Assembly (NCBI RefSeq): GCF_026130175.1 | Contig: NZ_JAIGNI010000016.1 | Coordinates: 22,480 to 86,479, forward strand | Reading direction: 5' to 3' | Length of the DNA stretch: 64,000 bases | Origin: Lyngbya sp. CCAP 1446/10 | GTDB lineage: Bacteria; Cyanobacteriota; Cyanobacteriia; Cyanobacteriales; Microcoleaceae | Shown: positions 36,538 to 46,842 of the stretch, one piece after another | How the letters are laid out: each line of letters begins with the position of its first letter | Position numbering within the stretch: position 1 is the first letter of the stretch | The notes under the pieces: generated by a model | Database searches by the model: none | What the model was told of the DNA's origin: nothing | Seen by the model: the letters and a program-made list of their open reading frames with translations, nothing else | Translations under genes and position numbers: made by a program

Positions 36538-37161
36538 ATGGAAAATCGACTGACTCAAACTCAACTAACGCAAATAGTAGCTGAAGTACAACGCCTTTCT
36601 AACGTTCGGGAAGCTGAACTTAATTCCGCAGAAGTCACACAAATTTTGCAGGAATTGGGCTTGCCGACCGAGTTGCTAGATGAGGCTTTAATCCAGTTGC
36701 AGCGTCGGGAAGCACTGGCACAGCAGCAACGCAGGAATCGGTGGATTGCTGGAGGATTGGCTGCGGTGGCTGTGGGGGCGATCGCCATTACCGGATTTTT
36801 CATTCAACAAAGCCGACAGGCCCTGGATCGCATTTCAGTGCAACAAAACCGCATAACTTCCGTACAAGATGATGGCGGCAACTTGACAGTTGTTTCCCGC
36901 CAAAACAATCCCGAAATCTTTTACCGCGTCACCTTAAAGGATGCACCTTTAGGAAAAAAACTCTCGCTATCCTGCGATTGGATCGATCCCAGCGGTCAAG
37001 TTGTCAAACAAAACAGCTATCAAACTCGCGAAATCGACAAATCTATCTGGAATACTCAATGCCGTTACAAAATTGGTACTGCGGCTACTCCCGGAAAGTG
37101 GCAAGTTAAAATGTTGGTTGAAAATCGGGCGATCGGTAGTACATCCTTTCAACTTAAATAA
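36538..37161 (+). CDS. Cyanobacterial single-span membrane protein, function unknown
   Basis: A 207-residue protein. Residues 1-63 are soluble and helical (LTQTQLTQIVAEVQRLSNVR, ILQELGLPTELLDEAL); a transmembrane helix (WIAGGLAAVAVGAIAITGFF) spans about 69-88; the C-terminal 115 residues form a beta-rich domain with two cysteines (SLSCDW and NTQCRYK) that could pair by a disulfide outside the cytoplasm. No family was recognised with certainty. The downstream asparagine-synthetase-like gene begins 33 bases later on the same strand. Confidence 0.75.
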   Translation: MENRLTQTQLTQIVAEVQRLSNVREAELNSAEVTQILQELGLPTELLDEALIQLQRREALAQQQRRNRWIAGGLAAVAVGAIAITGFFIQQSRQALDRISVQQNRITSVQDDGGNLTVVSRQNNPEIFYRVTLKDAPLGKKLSLSCDWIDPSGQVVKQNSYQTREIDKSIWNTQCRYKIGTAATPGKWQVKMLVENRAIGSTSFQLK

Positions 37162-37194: not shown

Positions 37195-39030
37195 ATGAAA
37201 ATTACTAACAAACCGCGTCAATTTGTAGGATACTGGGGCTGCGATTCTCGCGATAAATTGGAAGCGCGGCTGGCGAAAATTATCAGCAAATCTGGCGGAG
37301 AAATCCCAGTGCAAAAAATCGAGAATTCGTCTAATTTGTCCGCCGCAGGAAACGAAAATCACCCAATTTGGAATGTAGCGAGCACCGAGTGCGATCGCCC
37401 GCAGCACTTGCCAACCCAAAAAAGTGATAAAACTTGGCAAATCGCTGCCCTCTCAGCCTCTGGACTATCAACGTATCCATCAACCAACGGTTTGCTGTTA
37501 CCTGATACCTGGGTAAATGTCCGCAAAAATTTCCTAATTTTAGGACGAGAACCCTTTGGGCGAGTAACACTTTACTGGACGCAAATCGAGCAGAGTATTT
37601 GGTTTGCATCGAGTTTACAACTGCTGTTAAATATTTGCGAAAAACCAGATATCAGCATTCCAGGTTTGTACAGTTATAGCTGTTTTTCCTATGTCCCAAC
37701 TCCCTTAACTCCCGTAGAAAAGGTGTTCGCCGTTCCCGCCGGAACCGAATTAACTTGGGAGTGCGATCGAGATAGCGGTGTTATTTTTAAACCCCCATCA
37801 AAACCCTTGTTAGAATGGCGAGAAATTTCAGAAGAAATACAAGACGAAGCAGCAGCCATAACAGAATTACAAGACTTACTTAAAAATGCTGTTGAACGTC
37901 AAATTTCCGATATAAATAGCCATGAAACTGTCGGAGTATTTCTCTCAGGCGGTTTAGATTCCTCAATAGTCGCAGCTTTATTAGTCAAAGCCGGAGTCAA
38001 AGTCCGCGCTTATACTCTCGACTTCGGCGAAGCCGGAATTCCCGAATATCCTTGGGCTCAACAAGTGGCCGATTCGCTGAAAATTCCCTTAGTAAAAGTA
38101 GATGCTACGCCACGCCGGATTAAACAAGTTTTGCATTCTGCTGTGAAAGCTTTAGATTTGCCCTTTGGCGACGGAGTTACAGTCCCACTTTACCTGTTAA
38201 ATGAAGCTGCGAGTCAAGAATGTGCGATCGTTTTTAACGGTGAAGGCGGCGATCAGTTATTTGCAGGATGGACGAATAAACCCCTGATTGCAGCGGCTGT
38301 TTATCAAGCCGCAAATCCCGCCGGAGACCAAACTTTTGCCCTGCAATATCTGCGAACTTTTCACCGACTTTGGGGATACGAATCTAAAGTTTATCAGCCG
38401 GAAATTTACACTGAAATTCAGAATGTGCAACCTCAAGATTGGCTGCTAGAGGCTCTTAATCCTGCGGTGGGCGGGTCTTTGCTGCATCGCCTCCGCCGCG
38501 CGAGTTTGATGCTGAAAGGGGCGCAGAACATCCATCCGCGCGCTGCTAATTTGGCTTTGGCTTTTGGTCTGAAAGTGCGATCGCCCTTTTGCGATTTTGC
38601 CCTCACAGATTGGACGTTTAAACTGTCGGGAGAACTGTGTTTGCGAGGTGCTTGTGAGAAATACATCCTCAAACGGGCGGTAGAAAATTGGCTACCTGCG
38701 GACATAGTTTGGCGGGAAAAGCGCGGTATGGGCGTGCCGTTAACTTCCTGGTGTTTTAATGAATTTTGGCATGACATCGGCGATTGGTTGAATCCTGCCG
38801 TGTTGCAATCAGAGAAACACTGGCAACCCGATTTAGCCGCTCAACTTATCTCCGGCAAATTCGCAGCCGGAATTCAAGGCCGGCGCATTGGCGAGATGAT
38901 TTGGCTGTTGGTGATGTGGCAAAATTGGCGATCGCAAATTCTAGGTGAAAAGGTGAAACACAAATCTTGGAATCATCCATTTTGGTTGCCTCGCCAGGTT
39001 TGGAATTACCGCCAACGGTGGGGAGAATAA
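37195..39030 (+). CDS. Asparagine synthetase-like protein with a degenerate glutaminase domain
   Basis: A 611-residue protein. The N-terminal part aligns with the class II amidotransferase domain from about 95 (ILGREPFGRVTLYW, FASSLQLLL, FSYVPTPLTPVEKVFAVPAG), but the sequence starts MKITNK, so the catalytic Cys2 is missing and the first 90 residues are unlike AsnB. The ATP-pyrophosphatase domain is intact: SGGLDSS (251-257), VFNGEGGDQLF and EKRGMGVPLTSW. Such Cys-less AsnB relatives, like beta-lactam synthetase, adenylate a carboxylate and join it to an amine other than glutamine-derived ammonia. It is followed by a MITE-like element, then a DapDC-like gene. Confidence 0.85.
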   Translation: MKITNKPRQFVGYWGCDSRDKLEARLAKIISKSGGEIPVQKIENSSNLSAAGNENHPIWNVASTECDRPQHLPTQKSDKTWQIAALSASGLSTYPSTNGLLLPDTWVNVRKNFLILGREPFGRVTLYWTQIEQSIWFASSLQLLLNICEKPDISIPGLYSYSCFSYVPTPLTPVEKVFAVPAGTELTWECDRDSGVIFKPPSKPLLEWREISEEIQDEAAAITELQDLLKNAVERQISDINSHETVGVFLSGGLDSSIVAALLVKAGVKVRAYTLDFGEAGIPEYPWAQQVADSLKIPLVKVDATPRRIKQVLHSAVKALDLPFGDGVTVPLYLLNEAASQECAIVFNGEGGDQLFAGWTNKPLIAAAVYQAANPAGDQTFALQYLRTFHRLWGYESKVYQPEIYTEIQNVQPQDWLLEALNPAVGGSLLHRLRRASLMLKGAQNIHPRAANLALAFGLKVRSPFCDFALTDWTFKLSGELCLRGACEKYILKRAVENWLPADIVWREKRGMGVPLTSWCFNEFWHDIGDWLNPAVLQSEKHWQPDLAAQLISGKFAAGIQGRRIGEMIWLLVMWQNWRSQILGEKVKHKSWNHPFWLPRQVWNYRQRWGE

Positions 39031-39218: not shown

Positions 39219-40457
39219 ATGCAAACAATTACCGATCGCAAATCAATCATCAAACAACCGCCTTTCACTCTTTCGCTAGCCCAAGAGTTATTAGCCACCT
39301 ACGGTTCGCCGCTGTACGTTTATCAAAGCGATATTTTGCGCCGAACTATTGCCCGCATTACCAAGGCAATTGACTATCCCAAAACTCAATTTTGTTTTGC
39401 CAGCGTCACCAACGGTAGCATCGCCCTGCTGCAAATTTTTCAGGATTGCGGATGGGGATTACACGCCAATACACCAGGAGATATTTATTTAGGAATTCAA
39501 GCAGGTTTTTTGCCCAAAAATATCGTTTACAGCGGCAGCAATCTGCACCGAGGTGAGATGGAACAAGTTCTAAAATGGGGTGTCAAAACTCTGAATTTCG
39601 ACAGTCTCGCTCAATTGCAGTTATGCTGCGAAGTGTACCAATCTCTCAGGGAAAACCAGCAGGCTTTAGAACCGCCCAGTCTGGGTTTGAGGCTGAATTT
39701 GCCCGAATTAACGGGGGATAGTCGCATTGGAGTGCGATCGTCCGAATTTCCCGCAGCAATTGCGATCGCCAAAACAGCCGGATTAAAGCTCACTGGCTTG
39801 CATTTTTATCGCGGAACCGGCACTAATTCCACCGCAGCGTTTACTCAAGTAATTGATACGATAATTGCCACCGCGCAGCAATTGCCAGATTGGGAATATC
39901 TCGATTTTGGCGGCGGCTTTGGCTATCCTTACCAAGGCGGTATAGCGTTTGATTGGGAACTGTTTGGGGCAGAATTAACCAGCAGAATTAGTCAACTAGA
40001 CCGCGAAATTGAGTTAATAATTGAACCAGGAAGAGCCGCCATAGCAGGATGTGCTACTTTGCTCGCTCAAGTTGTTTCCACAAAATGGCAGTCAGCTAAA
40101 CAAATTGTCGGTGTAGATACGACTGTTGCCAATCTTTCAGTGCCGTCAGTTCATGGCGGTTATCGAGAGATTTGTACCTGGAATTGTCGGGATGCTCTAC
40201 ATTTTACTGATATTTGTGGCAATACGACTTATTCGCGGGATTATCTGGGGAAAAACTGTCAACTTCCGGCTTTGGCAATTGGGGAAATTCTTGGTATTTT
40301 GGATGTGGGAGCTTACGGATATGCCATGTCGTCGCACTTTTTACACCGCCCCAAACCTGCGGAAGTGCTGTTAGAAAATGGCGGTCATCGGCTAATTCGC
40401 CACAGAGAAGATTACAGCGTTTTGTTAGCAAATCAAGTTTTTTTGAACAATCACTAG
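39219..40457 (+). CDS. Fold-type III PLP decarboxylase-like protein lacking the PLP lysine
   Basis: A 412-residue homologue of diaminopimelate decarboxylase. Kept features are YGSPLYVYQSDILRR, LNLPELTGDSRIGV, GLHFYRGTGTN (DapDC GLHxHxGS), YLDFGGGFGYPY, LIIEPGRAAI and ILDVGAYGYAMSSHF. The Schiff-base lysine, which sits in an A-V-K-A-N motif in the family, is replaced: residues 61-65 read A-S-V-T-N, putting Val63 at the lysine position. The Cys of the C-E-S-x-D motif is also absent (CGNTTYSRD). The fold is complete and not frame-broken, so it looks like a maintained pseudoenzyme or one with a changed chemistry. The next gene starts nine bases later. Confidence 0.85.
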   Translation: MQTITDRKSIIKQPPFTLSLAQELLATYGSPLYVYQSDILRRTIARITKAIDYPKTQFCFASVTNGSIALLQIFQDCGWGLHANTPGDIYLGIQAGFLPKNIVYSGSNLHRGEMEQVLKWGVKTLNFDSLAQLQLCCEVYQSLRENQQALEPPSLGLRLNLPELTGDSRIGVRSSEFPAAIAIAKTAGLKLTGLHFYRGTGTNSTAAFTQVIDTIIATAQQLPDWEYLDFGGGFGYPYQGGIAFDWELFGAELTSRISQLDREIELIIEPGRAAIAGCATLLAQVVSTKWQSAKQIVGVDTTVANLSVPSVHGGYREICTWNCRDALHFTDICGNTTYSRDYLGKNCQLPALAIGEILGILDVGAYGYAMSSHFLHRPKPAEVLLENGGHRLIRHREDYSVLLANQVFLNNH

Positions 40458-40466
40458 GAGATTTTT

Positions 40467-41759
40467 ATGAAGTGCATTAAATGCCAAACTGACAATAAGT
40501 TAAAAGAGCGCACAGCCAATGGTGGTCGCTGTAAACAATGCAATCATAAGTTTGCTTTTGAACCGACTGCTATGACTGATCTCAAAATAACTGACTCCAT
40601 GTTTGCCAAGGCGATTACCGATGTTTCTGTGAACGATACGCTGTTTTTTACTCCCCGACAGTTATTTTACTTTCTAGATCAGCGATCTAGAGTACAAAAT
40701 GAGAATTTGTTTGGCTTGGTTTATCAGTGTATGTTTTATAATTTTTGGAGCTTTTTTTTTGGTGGTATGTTTTTATTATCTTCTGGAATGACAAATGAAT
40801 TTATTTGCGCCATGTTCGCATTAAATAGTTTATTGTTAGCGGTATTTTTTGTTAAAAGTCGTTCTAGCAAATATTCATATAAACAACGCCAGACTTTTGC
40901 AAGAGTTTTGCAAGTTTGGGGAGGAATAGTTCTGGTGTGCGGAATTGGCTTTAGTCAGTTGCTATATTCCTCTGTAGTGCTTGTCGCTAGTTCTGCGATC
41001 GGAATCCTATCTATCTATTTCGGAAGCCTAAAAATTCCTAAAGTAACTCAAGAAGTTATTATTACAGACAGGCTGTTTCAATACTGGATTAATAAGTGGA
41101 CAGAAATCAACTCCTCGATCGCAAAAATGCTGCCTTCTCCCCGCGATACAAATAAAAACGCTGCCGTCAGTCCCGATGTCAGCGCTTACAGTTTTGACAG
41201 ATTAGTTGTGTGCGATCGCCCGGAAATTGCCCAATTTTTAATCGCCAACAATTTTCACTTTGAAAACAACTGTGCAGTCCTCAGCATTACCGGATATCCT
41301 CAAAGTATCTTTGATACAACGATGGAAATGCTGCGCCGCAATCCCGACTTAAAAGTGTACGCTTTGCACGATTGCAGTCCCAAAGGAATTGGTTTAGTTA
41401 ATCACCTACGCACGAGTTCTAATTGGTTCCCAAATAACAGGGCGATAATTATTGATATCGGATTGTTACCGAAGCAAATTCTGGCGGGTGGCGGCAGTAT
41501 GTTGGTTATGAGTTCTCAGGAAAATGCACAAAATGCTGCACAATTATCAGCAGAGATTCGCCAAGATTTATCCGCTGAGGAATTGCAGTGGTTGGAATTA
41601 GGGAATTATGTGGAATTGGAATCGTTTACTCCTCAAAGATTGATTCAAATTCTGAATCGAGGAATTGCCGGCAGTCGAGATTTAGGCAGCGATGATAGTA
41701 GTTTAATTCTGCTAGGTGGTACGGATAGTTCTATCTATGTTGTTGATAGTTTTGGTTGA
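40467..41759 (+). CDS. Zinc-ribbon membrane protein with a C-terminal TOPRIM-like domain, copy 1
   Basis: A 430-residue protein of unknown function. The N-terminus has a zinc ribbon (CIKC at 3-6 and CKQC near 23-26). A central region (about 85-190) holds four hydrophobic segments. The C-terminal 200 residues begin with AYSFDRLVVCDRPEIAQFL and continue with CAVLSITGYP and LKVYALHDCSPKGIGLV. The last three motifs recall the metal-binding pattern of the TOPRIM domain of topoisomerase VI-A/Spo11 (GYP and D-x-D-P-x-G); this is an inference from pattern only. AGGAG lies before the ATG. The next gene is its tandem paralogue. Confidence 0.7.
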   Translation: MKCIKCQTDNKLKERTANGGRCKQCNHKFAFEPTAMTDLKITDSMFAKAITDVSVNDTLFFTPRQLFYFLDQRSRVQNENLFGLVYQCMFYNFWSFFFGGMFLLSSGMTNEFICAMFALNSLLLAVFFVKSRSSKYSYKQRQTFARVLQVWGGIVLVCGIGFSQLLYSSVVLVASSAIGILSIYFGSLKIPKVTQEVIITDRLFQYWINKWTEINSSIAKMLPSPRDTNKNAAVSPDVSAYSFDRLVVCDRPEIAQFLIANNFHFENNCAVLSITGYPQSIFDTTMEMLRRNPDLKVYALHDCSPKGIGLVNHLRTSSNWFPNNRAIIIDIGLLPKQILAGGGSMLVMSSQENAQNAAQLSAEIRQDLSAEELQWLELGNYVELESFTPQRLIQILNRGIAGSRDLGSDDSSLILLGGTDSSIYVVDSFG

Positions 41760-41832: not shown

Positions 41833-43125
41833 ATGAAGTGCATTAAATGTGGAACTGATAATAAGTTAAAAGATCGCACAGCTTGGGGTCGTCGCTGTTT
41901 CAAGTGCCGCCATCCGTTTGCTTTTGAACCGACTACAATGACTGGTGTCAAAATAACTGACCCCATGTTTGCCAAGGCGATCGCGGATATTTCGGTTAAT
42001 GATACGCTGTTTTTTACCCCTCAGCAGTTATTTTACTTTTTAGACCAGCGATGGAAGTTAAAAAATGTTGATTTTTTACACACAGTTGAAGGATACACAA
42101 TGATTAATATACCATTTGGTTTCTTGGCTGCTCTCTGGGCATTGGTATCGCTAGATATATTTATTTTCGGAATGTTGGCAATAAACAGTTTCTTGGTATG
42201 GAAAACTTTTGTTGCGAGCCGTTCTGCAAAACATCTGTATAAACACCGCCAGATTTTTGCCGAGACTTTGCAAAATTGGGGAAAAATAGTTTTGGTTTGC
42301 GGAATCGGTATTAGTTTGTTATCAAGTTCCTATCTGCTATTTTTAGTGAGTTGTGGTCTCGGAATATCAGCTATCTACTTGGGAACCAGAGAAATCGAAA
42401 ATAAACCTGCAAATAGTCAAAAATTTACTATTGACTCCAACCAGTTTCAAGGCTGGCTTAATACTTGGACAGAAATTAACTCTCTGACTAAATTGCTACC
42501 ACCTCCCCGCGATACAAATGAAAATGCCGCCGTCAGTTCCGATGTCAGCGCTTACAGTTTTGACAGATTAGTTGTGTGCGATCGCCCGGAAATTGCCCAA
42601 TTCTTAATCGCCAACAATTTTCACTTTGAAAACAACTGTGCAGTCCTCAGCATTACCGGATATCCTCAAAGTATCTTTGATACAACGATGGAAATGCTGC
42701 GCCGCAATCCCGACTTAAAAGTGTACGCTTTGCACGATTGCAGTCCCAAAGGAATTGGTTTAGTTAATCACCTACGCACGAGTTCTAATTGGTTCCCAAA
42801 TAACAGGGCGATAATTATTGATATCGGATTGTTACCGAAGCAAATTCTCGCTGGTGGCGGCAGTATGTTTGTTTTGAGTTCTCAGGAAAATGCACAAAAT
42901 GCTGCACAATTATCAGCAGAGATTCGCCAAGATTTATCCGCTGAGGAATTGCAGTGGTTGGAATTAGGGAATTATGTGGAATTGGAATCGTTTACTCCTC
43001 AAAGATTGATTCAAATTCTGAATCGAGGAATTGCCGGCAGTCGAGATTTAGGCAGCGATGATAGTAGTTTAATTCTGCTAGGTGGTACGGATAGTTCTAT
43101 CTATGTTGTTGATAGTTTTGGTTGA
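41833..43125 (+). CDS. Zinc-ribbon membrane protein with a C-terminal TOPRIM-like domain, copy 2
   Basis: A 430-residue paralogue of the preceding gene with the same length and layout. The zinc ribbon (CIKC and CFKC) and the ITDPMFAKAIADISVND stretch are close to copy 1. The membrane segment (about 85-195) has diverged strongly. From about residue 228 to the end the two proteins are almost identical, and the DNA (42540-43124 against 41181-41758) differs at only a few bases. That pattern indicates recent gene conversion or a partial recent duplication. AGGAG precedes the ATG. No function is assigned. Confidence 0.7.
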   Translation: MKCIKCGTDNKLKDRTAWGRRCFKCRHPFAFEPTTMTGVKITDPMFAKAIADISVNDTLFFTPQQLFYFLDQRWKLKNVDFLHTVEGYTMINIPFGFLAALWALVSLDIFIFGMLAINSFLVWKTFVASRSAKHLYKHRQIFAETLQNWGKIVLVCGIGISLLSSSYLLFLVSCGLGISAIYLGTREIENKPANSQKFTIDSNQFQGWLNTWTEINSLTKLLPPPRDTNENAAVSSDVSAYSFDRLVVCDRPEIAQFLIANNFHFENNCAVLSITGYPQSIFDTTMEMLRRNPDLKVYALHDCSPKGIGLVNHLRTSSNWFPNNRAIIIDIGLLPKQILAGGGSMFVLSSQENAQNAAQLSAEIRQDLSAEELQWLELGNYVELESFTPQRLIQILNRGIAGSRDLGSDDSSLILLGGTDSSIYVVDSFG

Positions 43126-43130
43126 AGATG

Positions 43131-43321
43131 AGACGGCGGTTGAAACCGCGTCTACAAAAACGAAGAAGACAAGACGGCAGACAAGACGGCGGTTGAAACC
43201 GCGTCTACACAAACAATGTCCGCCTCCGCGGACTCAAGAGCATAATATAATTTTCACCGCGCATTCTTCAACCCGCGGAGGCGGGTTTCGTTTGTATAGA
43301 CGCGGTTTCAACCGCCCGGTT
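43131..43321. repeat. Long inverted dispersed repeat between convergent genes
   Basis: The arm 43185-43231 pairs with 43272-43320 over about 46 bases with about five mismatches (GACGCGGTTTCAACCGCC and CCGCGGAGGCGG cores). A partial extra copy precedes it. It lies between two convergent genes and could end transcription from both sides. Confidence 0.8.
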
Positions 43322-43348
43322 TTCTACCGTTTCCCTACCGGAAAGATA

Positions 43349-45103
43349 TTACTTATTACCTTGCAGCCAAAGTTCTAAACTCGTCAACAGCCACAACTTA
43401 ACACCATAACGCCCCCAAGTATCTCCCTCATAATCTAACCATTGAGCAATTAAAGATTGATTAAAATAAGGAGCAATAGCAGCCCTTTTTGACAGCAGCA
43501 AACCCCTAGCCTCCCGCTGCCAAAACTTCTTAAATCCCAACTGTACGGGAACCAGCATCCCGCTTTTGGGCCTGTCCAAAATTTGAGCCGGCAGCAGATT
43601 TGCCACCGCTTGTTTGAGCACAGCTTTCTCCACAACCCCGGACAATTTGTACTCAGGCGGAATTGTCATACTCAAATCCACGATTCGCTGGTCAAACAAA
43701 GGCGATCGCCCGTGCAAGCCCGCAGCTTGAGTCAAATTGTTCACTTTGGTCAAAATCTGGTCTGCCCCCTTAAACTTGATATTTAACGCCATTAATCGAT
43801 TTAGATAATTGCCGCTAGCATTCAAATCCGCACTAAATACCGAAGGTTCTGTTTGCATCGCTGCCCAAATTTCCGGTTTTAACAATTGAGGTAAATCCGC
43901 CGCGCACTTTTGAAATGACAGCAAATATGCTGGTAGCGCATCCAGATTACTGACAGAATTGTACAAGCTATTCATTAGCATCGGTTGATTTTTGGGGCCG
44001 CCAAAACAGGGATCGCCACCTTCGCCGTTCAGAATAACTTCGACAGATTCCCGCGCCATTCTTCCTAATAGCAAGTTTGGCACTGTCAGCGGATCGCCGA
44101 TCGGATCGTCTAAATATGCGATCGTCTCTGGTAACTTTTCCCACATATCCCGAAAGCTAATTTCTAAAATGTGGTGTTCAGTTTGGCAATGTTCGGCGAC
44201 TAAACTGGAAAATTCTAATTCGTTGGCGCATTCTTCTCCAAAATGAATTGAGTAAGTGTGAATTGGCCGATCGCAAAATTGAGCAGCTAAGGCCGCGATA
44301 CAGCTAGAATCTAACCCGCCGGAAAGAAACACGCCTACAGGTTGATTTGCTGGCAAATATTCTTGGACAATTTCATCTAAAAGAGAGCGCAATCTAGCGC
44401 CGTGCCATTCTAAAGATTGTGCGGCCTCGACAACTTGTTCTCGCAGTTCCCAGTAAGCCGAAATTGTCTCATCAGGGAAGCTTAAAACGCATCCTGGGCG
44501 CAGTTCTCGGACTTTTTCCCAGAGGGTACGATCGCCCGGAACGAACGAACAACACAGGTAATCTCGCAGGGCTGTGAGGTCGATCGCTCTTGAGTGGTAT
44601 TTGGCGATCGCCCGCAGTTGAGGCGCAATCCAGCGAGTCGCGCCAACATTAGTATAGTAGAGAGTTCGTGCGCCCGTGCGATCGCGCGCCAGCCGCAAAA
44701 CCTGCGATTCCCTATCCCAAACCGCAAACGCAAACATACCCGCCAGCAGCGCGGCGCATTCAACGCCCCAACGTTCCCACAGTTGAGCTACTAATTGGCG
44801 ATCGCACCCCTGCCAACTACTAGCAGAAATCCCCAATTTTTCCAGCAATTGCGATCGATTGCTTAGCCAAATATCGCCTACAATAACAAATTTTTCAGAG
44901 GGACTGAGAATAAGCTGAACGCTTGGGTTAGAGCAAATAATCGCAATTTGACCTTCTCGCCACGCTGTATCATCTGCGATTCCGTCTGTTTTTCCCCAAG
45001 CTATCCGCCAACTTGAGGCAAATTCAACTAGAGGATTTGGAGGAACTGAGATTTTTGGTTTTTGGCTACCCTTGTAATTCAGGAATGATTTTATATGGTT
45101 CAT
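43349..45103 (-). CDS. Asparagine synthetase-like protein without the glutaminase cysteine
   Basis: A 584-residue AsnB/beta-lactam-synthetase-like protein. The amidotransferase-like domain is better preserved than in the paralogue at 37195 (GMFAFAVWD, LARDRTGARTLYY, LRPGCVLSFP), but it starts MNHIKSFLNY and has no Met-Cys. The synthetase domain has SGGLDSS (261-267), NGEGGDPCFGG and PKSGMLVPV. The frame is open from 45160; ATG 45103 is preferred because a 14-base inverted repeat lies just upstream. It converges with the tandem membrane genes and lies downstream of the SDR gene on the same strand. Confidence 0.85.
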   Translation of the reverse strand: MNHIKSFLNYKGSQKPKISVPPNPLVEFASSWRIAWGKTDGIADDTAWREGQIAIICSNPSVQLILSPSEKFVIVGDIWLSNRSQLLEKLGISASSWQGCDRQLVAQLWERWGVECAALLAGMFAFAVWDRESQVLRLARDRTGARTLYYTNVGATRWIAPQLRAIAKYHSRAIDLTALRDYLCCSFVPGDRTLWEKVRELRPGCVLSFPDETISAYWELREQVVEAAQSLEWHGARLRSLLDEIVQEYLPANQPVGVFLSGGLDSSCIAALAAQFCDRPIHTYSIHFGEECANELEFSSLVAEHCQTEHHILEISFRDMWEKLPETIAYLDDPIGDPLTVPNLLLGRMARESVEVILNGEGGDPCFGGPKNQPMLMNSLYNSVSNLDALPAYLLSFQKCAADLPQLLKPEIWAAMQTEPSVFSADLNASGNYLNRLMALNIKFKGADQILTKVNNLTQAAGLHGRSPLFDQRIVDLSMTIPPEYKLSGVVEKAVLKQAVANLLPAQILDRPKSGMLVPVQLGFKKFWQREARGLLLSKRAAIAPYFNQSLIAQWLDYEGDTWGRYGVKLWLLTSLELWLQGNK

Positions 45104-45110
45104 TTTTACG

Positions 45111-45141
45111 AGCTTAATATTATTTAGAATAATATCAAGCT
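45111..45141. promoter_or_regulatory. Inverted repeat just upstream of the second asparagine synthetase-like gene
   Basis: AGCTTAATATTATT-TAG-AATAATATCAAGCT, 13 of 14 arm positions paired, begins eight bases before the ATG. It could be a repressor operator or an mRNA leader hairpin. Confidence 0.5.
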
Positions 45142-45178
45142 TAACAGAAACATACACCATGCGATCACTTTATTTCTT

Positions 45179-46091: not shown

Positions 46092-46842
46092 AGATTAAAC
46101 CCTCTGGTTTTGATGCTCACCGCGGCACGGAGTTATGAGTTGTGAGTTATGAATTATCAGTTATGAGTTGAATATTTTCGCGGTAACAACTCAGAATTGA
46201 CAATTTTGGCAAAGGCTATCTTGTTTCGATAGACCTAATTGATTTGTGGAGTTAACTCAAAACTCAAACCTTTTGAATCGTGGACGTGTGCGTGAGCTGA
46301 ACTAAACTTTTGATTGACCATAAATCGATCTAAATCTGGTCAATCAAACTCATTCAAGCAGACAAACCTGAGATGAGAAAACGTAGTCATGAATAATATT
46401 AAAGCGGACTTTTTTACCGCTTTTTCTTGAGTCTGCGGAGGCAGGCTTTGCTTGTGTAGCCGCGAATTCATTCGCCGGGATTGTTGTTTCTTGAGTCTGC
46501 GGAGGCAGACTTTGCTTGTGTAGCCGCGAATTCATTCGCCGGGATTGTTGTTTCTTGAATCTGCGGAGGCAGGCTTTGCTTGTGTAGCCGCGAATTCATT
46601 CGTCGGGATTGTTGTTTCTTGAGTCTGCGGAGGCAGACTTTGCTTGTGTAGCCGCGAATTCATTCGCCGAGAATATTCGCCGGGGATTCGCCTGAATTGG
46701 CACAGGATAATTGAGCAATACAGATTGTCAATTCCACACCTCCTAGATATGAGAACTTTCTGTCTACACACACCTTAACAACTAGAAGCTAAAGTGGCAA
46801 CAATTTTTAATAAATCTTGCGCAACACTTCTTTACAATCTTC
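46092..46842. other. Intergenic region with a four-copy tandem repeat
   Basis: A 750-base gene-free stretch. It contains AGTTATGAGTT short repeats (46130-46170) and the 64-base tandem array (46426-46681). The short open frames here consist of repeat sequence. Confidence 0.7.
46426..46681 (-). repeat. Tandem array of four 64-base units
   Basis: Units start at 46426, 46490, 46554 and 46618 with a constant 64-base period and few differences. Each contains GTCTGCGGAGGCAG and GCCGCGAATTCATTCGCCG. There are no spacers, so it is not a CRISPR array. Confidence 0.95.

Follow-up and report, generated by a model that had tools for sequence, protein, structure and literature searches.

A conserved decarboxylase-fold protein lacking the cofactor-binding lysine, and the gene cassette that carries it, in Lyngbya sp. 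CCAP 1446/10

A decarboxylase-like protein without the PLP lysine

The stretch of DNA analyzed here, hereafter the window, covers 64,000 nucleotides of the cyanobacterium Lyngbya sp. CCAP 1446/10 (contig NZ_JAIGNI010000016.1, positions 22,480 to 86,479 of the forward strand). It harbors a gene coding for a protein, designated D, that resembles the fold-type III decarboxylases and does not possess the lysine with which their cofactor, pyridoxal 5'-phosphate (PLP), forms a Schiff base. This lysine is regarded as the hallmark of PLP enzymes. The gene is part of a cassette, M-A1-D-T-A2, which also codes for two AsnB-like amide ligases (A1 and A2), a tailed protein present in two copies (T) and a protein without any Pfam match (M). 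The features of D are as follows (positions in the window, with the evidence in brackets; ORF, open reading frame):

39219..40457, plus strand: D, a 412-amino-acid fold-type III decarboxylase-like protein without the PLP lysine (ORF, Pfam, HMMER, alignments)
39405..39407, plus strand: codon of Val63, at the position of the PLP Schiff-base lysine (alignments)
39807..39809, plus strand: codon of Tyr197, at the position of the PLP-stacking histidine (alignment; role of the histidine taken from FigC, PMC7857480)
39909..39917, plus strand: Gly231-233, the PLP-phosphate loop, kept (alignment)
40023..40034, plus strand: E269-P-G-R272, contacts to the pyridine nitrogen and the phosphate, kept (alignment; roles from PMC7857480, by motif mapping)
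40215..40241, plus strand: CGNTTYSRD (residues 333-341), the loop in place of C-E-S-x-D, with Cys replaced by Thr337 and Glu by Tyr338 (alignments)

The reading frame is free of stop codons over the 412 amino acids, and both fold-type III decarboxylase domains, PF02784 and PF00278, exceed their Pfam gathering scores, which places D within the fold of the superfamily. The intact frame and its GGGFG, EPGR and GAYGYAMSS motifs had been noticed in a preliminary description of the gene, and are indeed present. The closest solved structures are diaminopimelate decarboxylases (DapDC; 2p3e, E 7e-44), with which D aligns from end to end. Against TIGR01048, the curated model of LysA, D obtains about 223.7-224.9 bits, under the cut-off of 297.9, whereas a separate LysA encoded on contig 112 of the host genome reaches 490 bits, far over it. 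This rules out D as the LysA of the cell.

In three HMMER alignments with solved DapDCs, the stretch F-A-S-V63-T-N of D stands opposite Y/F-A-V-K-A-N. The valine in place of the PLP lysine, as read in the preliminary description, is thus confirmed, both by these comparisons and by a 59-row alignment in which Lys is present in 30/30 LysA of the phylum vs Val in 11/11 cyanobacterial D rows. Eight other decarboxylase paralogues fetched from the same phylum keep the lysine without exception (8/8), which rules out a general loss of this residue among such paralogues.

Conservation of residue 63 and of the cofactor pocket

Position 63 was compared in two sets of relatives: a near set, made of the query and the 120 best listed among 2877 homologues, and a distant set, made of the 120 best listed of 2144, in which the protein used as search query, that of Cyanobacteria bacterium RYN_339 (locus L113), is included. 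Valine is present in 121/121 sequences of the former and 120/120 of the latter. Among the sequences listed in the two sets, close homologues included, none of the D family was found to have Lys here, and a strain-specific mutation is ruled out by the 241/241 sequences with Val63. Few rows of the distant set bear organism names, and those are mostly from metagenome bins; the named members include Hyalangium, Acidobacteria, Armatimonadetes, Acidimicrobiales, Gaiellaceae, Kofleriaceae, Blastocatellia and Rubrivivax. In two remote relatives from rhizobial plasmids, the position is occupied by Met, not Lys. In a maximum-likelihood tree of the 59 rows, a branch with a support of 100/100 separates the 28 lysine-less rows from the others.

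The contacts made by the cofactor are described for FigC (PMC7857480): K63 makes the Schiff base, the ring is stacked by H198, R151 is close to the hydroxyl, the glycine loop and R290 grip the phosphate, E287 contacts the pyridine nitrogen, and the other subunit contributes C354. They were transferred to D by motif, FigC lying outside the alignment. At the positions of the His and Cys, all D rows have Y197 (28/28) and T337 (28/28), and at that of the Lys they have V63, except for the two rhizobial rows with Met. The loss of the Cys of the C-E-S-x-D loop had already been pointed out and holds: the Cys-Glu pair present in 30/30 LysA is Thr337-Tyr338 in the D of the window. The changes extend beyond those reported initially, with Tyr197 at the stacking His, Val308 at the Arg of an R-P motif and Tyr338 at the Glu. 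The Glu position of the loop is Tyr338 in cyanobacterial D and His in the distant group, while its Gly position is Arg340 in all D rows except one. V308 stands in for the Arg of R-P in both the cyanobacterial and the distant group, while the rhizobial rows still have the Arg. Unchanged in the columns of the 59-row alignment are R158, G231-233, E269, R272 and Y366. With the Lys, His and Cys lost, lysine-based decarboxylation by D, as judged from its residues, cannot operate, whereas D retains most of a site that could accommodate PLP, pyridoxamine 5'-phosphate (PMP) or a different phosphate compound.

D is under purifying selection. The ratio of nonsynonymous to synonymous substitution rates (dN/dS) against four near relatives is 0.105-0.140, and in matched pairs it is the lowest of four cassette genes (A1 0.22-0.23, A2 0.15-0.17, T about 0.45, the latter possibly raised by the tandem copies). 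A further pair, with locus L053, gives 0.086 at a dS of 2.2, and two others (L079 and L092) are saturated at synonymous sites and yield no ratio. A decaying gene is ruled out for the window by a dN/dS of about 0.1. This low ratio and the invariance of residue 63 in both sets bear out the earlier suggestion of a maintained protein. The accompanying term pseudoenzyme is appropriate in part: with its catalytic motif lost under purifying selection, D is by its sequence a pseudoenzyme as far as lysine-based decarboxylation is concerned, but ligand binding or a lysine-free chemistry would be compatible with the contacts that are mostly kept and with the new pocket residues, which are fixed.

The two rhizobial genes with Met at the lysine position (L125, 7962-9155, and L126, 5953-7059) are preceded by genes coding for a SPASM radical S-adenosylmethionine (SAM) protein and a B12-binding radical-SAM protein. 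A peptidase gene is found nearby, TldD-related at L125 and Rce1-like at L126. The radical-SAM surroundings fit a peptide-modifying setting, though these relatives remain remote.

The surrounding cassette

The other genes of the cassette are as follows:

36538..37161, plus strand: M, a 207-amino-acid protein that has no match in Pfam and whose gene opens the cassette (Pfam, ORF clustering)
37195..39030, plus strand: A1, an AsnB-like amide ligase with intact PP-loop SGGLDS and no Met-Cys start, the Cys being that of the glutaminase (Pfam, NCBIfam, alignment)
40467..41759, plus strand: T copy 1, with a zinc-ribbon motif, long helices, a Toprim-like domain and a tail ending in -SFG (Pfam, ORF comparison)
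41833..43125, plus strand: T copy 2, in tandem, of the same layout and ending in -DSFG (structure model, Foldseek, ORF comparison)
43117..43122, plus strand: C-terminal Phe-Gly codons of T, near-invariant (88/90 T ORFs; 117/120 distant T listed)
43349..45160, minus strand: A2, a second AsnB-like ligase, convergent, with intact PP-loop and no Met-Cys start; its start codon is uncertain (Pfam, NCBIfam, alignment)

The gene content was compared over the 80 most similar of 139 loci, all cyanobacterial by title, together with the window, a neighbor being counted if present anywhere within the fetched locus. Clustering of the ORFs of these 81 loci gave five recurrent families, namely D (81), T (78), A1 (71), M (68) and A2 (54). 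When only well-flanked loci are considered, T is present in 76/77, A1 in 67/72, M in 65/72 and A2 in 34/45; the order M-A1-D-T is found in 61/69 loci. A partnership of D with the two synthetase-like neighbors had been proposed at first; both are part of the cassette, but the most constant neighbor of D is T and not A1 or A2. Outside the cyanobacterial class, locus L113 (G324:C450, 10089-15742) harbors a compact D-A1-T-A2 operon in which D and A1, as well as A1 and T, overlap by 4 bases, and locus L112 harbors D, T and A2. The distant D and T listings, which reach into other phyla, have 12 contig sizes above 4 kb in common (119 and 118 rows with a contig size), one of them being that of the query's own contig, vs 0.16 expected by chance as estimated from jittered sizes. 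Two of the 12 belong to the myxobacterium Hyalangium by name on both sides. Given the constancy of T and the shared contig sizes, D and T look like a core pair.

The distribution of D is patchy. A match at E up to 1e-30 was obtained in 62 of the 291 genomes drawn from the order, including two (G160 and G185) with only 28% identity and some matching over a part only (e.g. G051, G267, G281). Within the genus, D is present in 11/16 drawn genomes, the genome under study included. In Gloeothece verrucosa PCC 7822 (L124), the cassette lies on the linear plasmid Cy782202, typed as conjugative, near a gene of the protelomerase family, as read from annotation, gene order and gene sizes. In one genome of the order, A1, D, T and A2 are left only as broken fragments (L120, G584:C1:3540000-3558000), a loss as a unit.

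The families were aligned with rows hand-picked for spread (54 for D, 44 for T, 20 for A1 and 19 for A2). At its N-terminus, T carries four Cys that are invariant and arranged as in a zinc ribbon (44-row alignment), and its long predicted helices are likely membrane segments. In the structure model of T, with a predicted local distance difference test (pLDDT) score of 81.3, the Toprim-like domain resembles topoisomerase VI A. Foldseek matched the model to 1d3y_B (E 2.3e-4, probability 1.00, TMt 0.42, root-mean-square deviation 4.3 over 171 columns), the match being at the level of the domain and obtained with a predicted structure. The Toprim family of topoisomerase VI A and Spo11 (PF21180) gives 22.5 and 22.0 bits with the two copies, under its gathering score of 24.1, and no match to solved structures was obtained with the T sequence, either single or as a profile. 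Toprim enzymes carry two Asp in their motif. In T (residues 245-332 of the protein encoded at 41833-43125) the domain reads H-D-x-S/T instead, and it may therefore be catalytically inactive.

The C-terminal Phe-Gly of T is found in 88/90 T ORFs of the cyanobacterial loci vs 5/1154 other ORFs there, two of these five resembling pieces of T tails. It is also present in 117/120 distant T (best 120 of 1590, the query's own included). The rest of the tail is variable and, in the distant listing, rich in Asp, Ser and Gly. The two tandem copies of the window share 76% amino-acid identity overall; their DNA identity is 96-100% over the last 590 bases vs 24-55% between bases 200 and 700, as compared without gaps, so that any insertions or deletions would exaggerate the difference. 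It looks like the C-terminal halves were homogenized by gene conversion or arose from a recent partial duplication.

Concerning the ligases, the SGG-x-DS ATP loop is intact in 71/71 A1 and 54/54 A2 ORFs. None of these 71 and 54 ORFs has Met-Cys within the first 60 residues from the predicted start codon, so that the catalytic Cys of the glutaminase is not found and A1 and A2 likely do not use glutamine. Beta-lactam synthetase, which is AsnB-like, does not use glutamine either. The lysine of the W-R-x-K stretch of AsnB aligns with K in both A1 and A2. In the A1 of L113, which begins with MSGICGW, Ser occupies the position of the glutaminase Cys. Among solved structures, A2 matches 1jgt and 1q15 by sequence, and A1 matches 1q15.

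A known defence system was considered and set aside: PADLOC, run on 8 proteins, returned a weak QueC match for A1, PDC-M51A for the two rhizobial radical-SAM proteins, and nothing for the others. Finally, a short repeat apparently occurs several times in the intergenic region at 46340-46770, where the ORF translations show the same peptide again and again, and a similar stretch lies near 43080-43380.

Interpretation

The reading that we prefer, tentatively and with a probability of roughly 0.45, is that D is an ancient non-decarboxylating, ligand-binding PLP-fold subunit of a cassette that modifies proteins, the neighboring T being its probable client. In the usual pocket at the dimer interface, D would bind PLP, PMP or some other ligand with a phosphate group without a covalent bond, and it would form a complex with T. 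A1 and A2 would adenylate a carboxylate, either a tail Asp or the terminal Gly of T, and join an amine to it, a reaction for which D may position or supply one of the partners. The proposal can be taken further, to an undescribed bacterial protein-modification system with D and a membrane-bound T as its core, where A1 and A2 would activate the acidic, Phe-Gly-ended tail (through Asp side chains or the C-terminal Gly) and D would hold or supply the amine via non-covalent PLP or PMP; in this complete form it is speculative and on balance unlikely.

Several observations weigh against the preferred reading. A2 was not found at 11/45 and A1 at 5/72 well-flanked loci; D and T may therefore act without the ligases, or the ligases lie elsewhere at these loci. 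T is missing from one of the 77 loci (L050). The tail of T could be a localization or degradation signal. The phosphate site is not fully identical to that of LysA, the Ser of H-x-G-S (30/30 LysA) being Thr200 in all D rows. In the model of D, the loops 307-314, 337-340 and 367-373, which lie at the active site, have pLDDT values below 50, and the model is not of the dimer, so that the geometry of the pocket is not established. In addition, the tree program issued a warning that long branches meet (among them the D group, L114 and the rhizobial rows), which makes the placement of the rhizobial rows especially uncertain.

Alternatively, D could still be an enzyme, binding PMP or PLP without a lysine and catalyzing a different reaction with Tyr197, Thr337 and Tyr/His338 as new catalytic residues. 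The retention of R158, the glycine loop, E269, R272 and Y366 is consistent with such an activity, as are the replaced positions, which are fixed or nearly so, and a precedent exists in the PMP-dependent sugar dehydratases, which function without the lysine in another fold type. No lysine-less catalytic member of the fold type of D was found in the literature searched, however, and the Arg of R-P is also gone in both the cyanobacterial and the distant groups. We consider a lysine-free enzyme doubtful.

It is somewhat less plausible, and in our opinion unlikely, that D is a pure scaffold or regulator with an empty pocket, like the antizyme inhibitor or the prozymes. Partner-regulating dead decarboxylase homologues are on record: the antizyme inhibitor is an inactive homologue of ornithine decarboxylase acting as a regulator (PMC3084279), and in another case the dead homologue serves to activate its partner (PMC10211241). 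The pocket columns examined, taken by themselves, show little or no variation in either set, and a pure scaffold would have no obvious need of such conservation.

The migration of a lysine from elsewhere into the pocket, restoring normal PLP chemistry, has a precedent in the migrated catalytic lysines of pseudokinases (PMC10211241). In the near set, K289 and K294 are the only conserved lysines of the query, and K294 becomes Arg in the distant set. K289, the sole lysine conserved in both sets, is also present in 30/30 LysA, beside the normal lysine; therefore, no newly conserved substitute lysine is visible in the near and distant D sequences, and such a migration is very improbable. An ordinary DapDC damaged by mutation in this strain, or a decaying leftover, is refuted for the window by Val63 throughout the two sets, the low dN/dS and the separate LysA, a general family resemblance and the broken cassette of G584 being all that speaks for it.

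Among known systems, LysA (TIGR01048) differs from D by its Schiff-base Lys, its stacking His and the Cys-Glu of C-E-S-x-D. The alanine-racemase-fold decarboxylases of natural products, BtrK and FigC, can be compared in the same manner: of K63, H198 and C354 of FigC, none is found in D by motif mapping. Under the preferred reading, D would share with the antizyme inhibitor (PMC3084279) a decarboxylase fold kept without decarboxylase activity; the latter is an animal regulator of antizyme, whereas D is bacterial and lies in a cassette with AsnB-like ligases. The XrtA/PEP-CTERM pair (TIGR03099 and TIGR03108) also combines decarboxylase-fold and AsnB-like proteins, but D obtains 89.1 vs a cut-off of 478.45, A2, whose best NCBIfam match is TIGR03108, obtains 258.1 bits vs 816.9, and the Lys is absent in D. 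A1 and A2 are similar to beta-lactam synthetase, CarA and the lasso cyclases in their AsnB fold, ATP loop and lack of a Met-Cys start. Unlike these systems, the cassette has two ligases, and a larger tailed protein would replace the small substrate or short precursor peptide. No description of the D family or of the cassette was found in the open-licence literature searched. While inactive decarboxylase-fold proteins are known, the D family and its cassette are apparently undescribed and possibly represent a new kind of system.

Many genes of the D family are named diaminopimelate decarboxylase, and annotation would therefore credit their hosts with a lysine-making step that the residues do not support. 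With a conserved lysine-less group that keeps most of the cofactor site, the re-use of the PLP fold for non-covalent cofactor handling becomes testable. With its partner tailed by Phe-Gly, the cassette suggests that filamentous cyanobacteria have a system which apparently has not been studied; D and T also occur together, as judged by shared contig sizes, in Hyalangium. If the more far-reaching proposal of an undescribed modification system is true, a decarboxylase fold would have been converted into a cofactor-holding subunit without the Schiff-base lysine.
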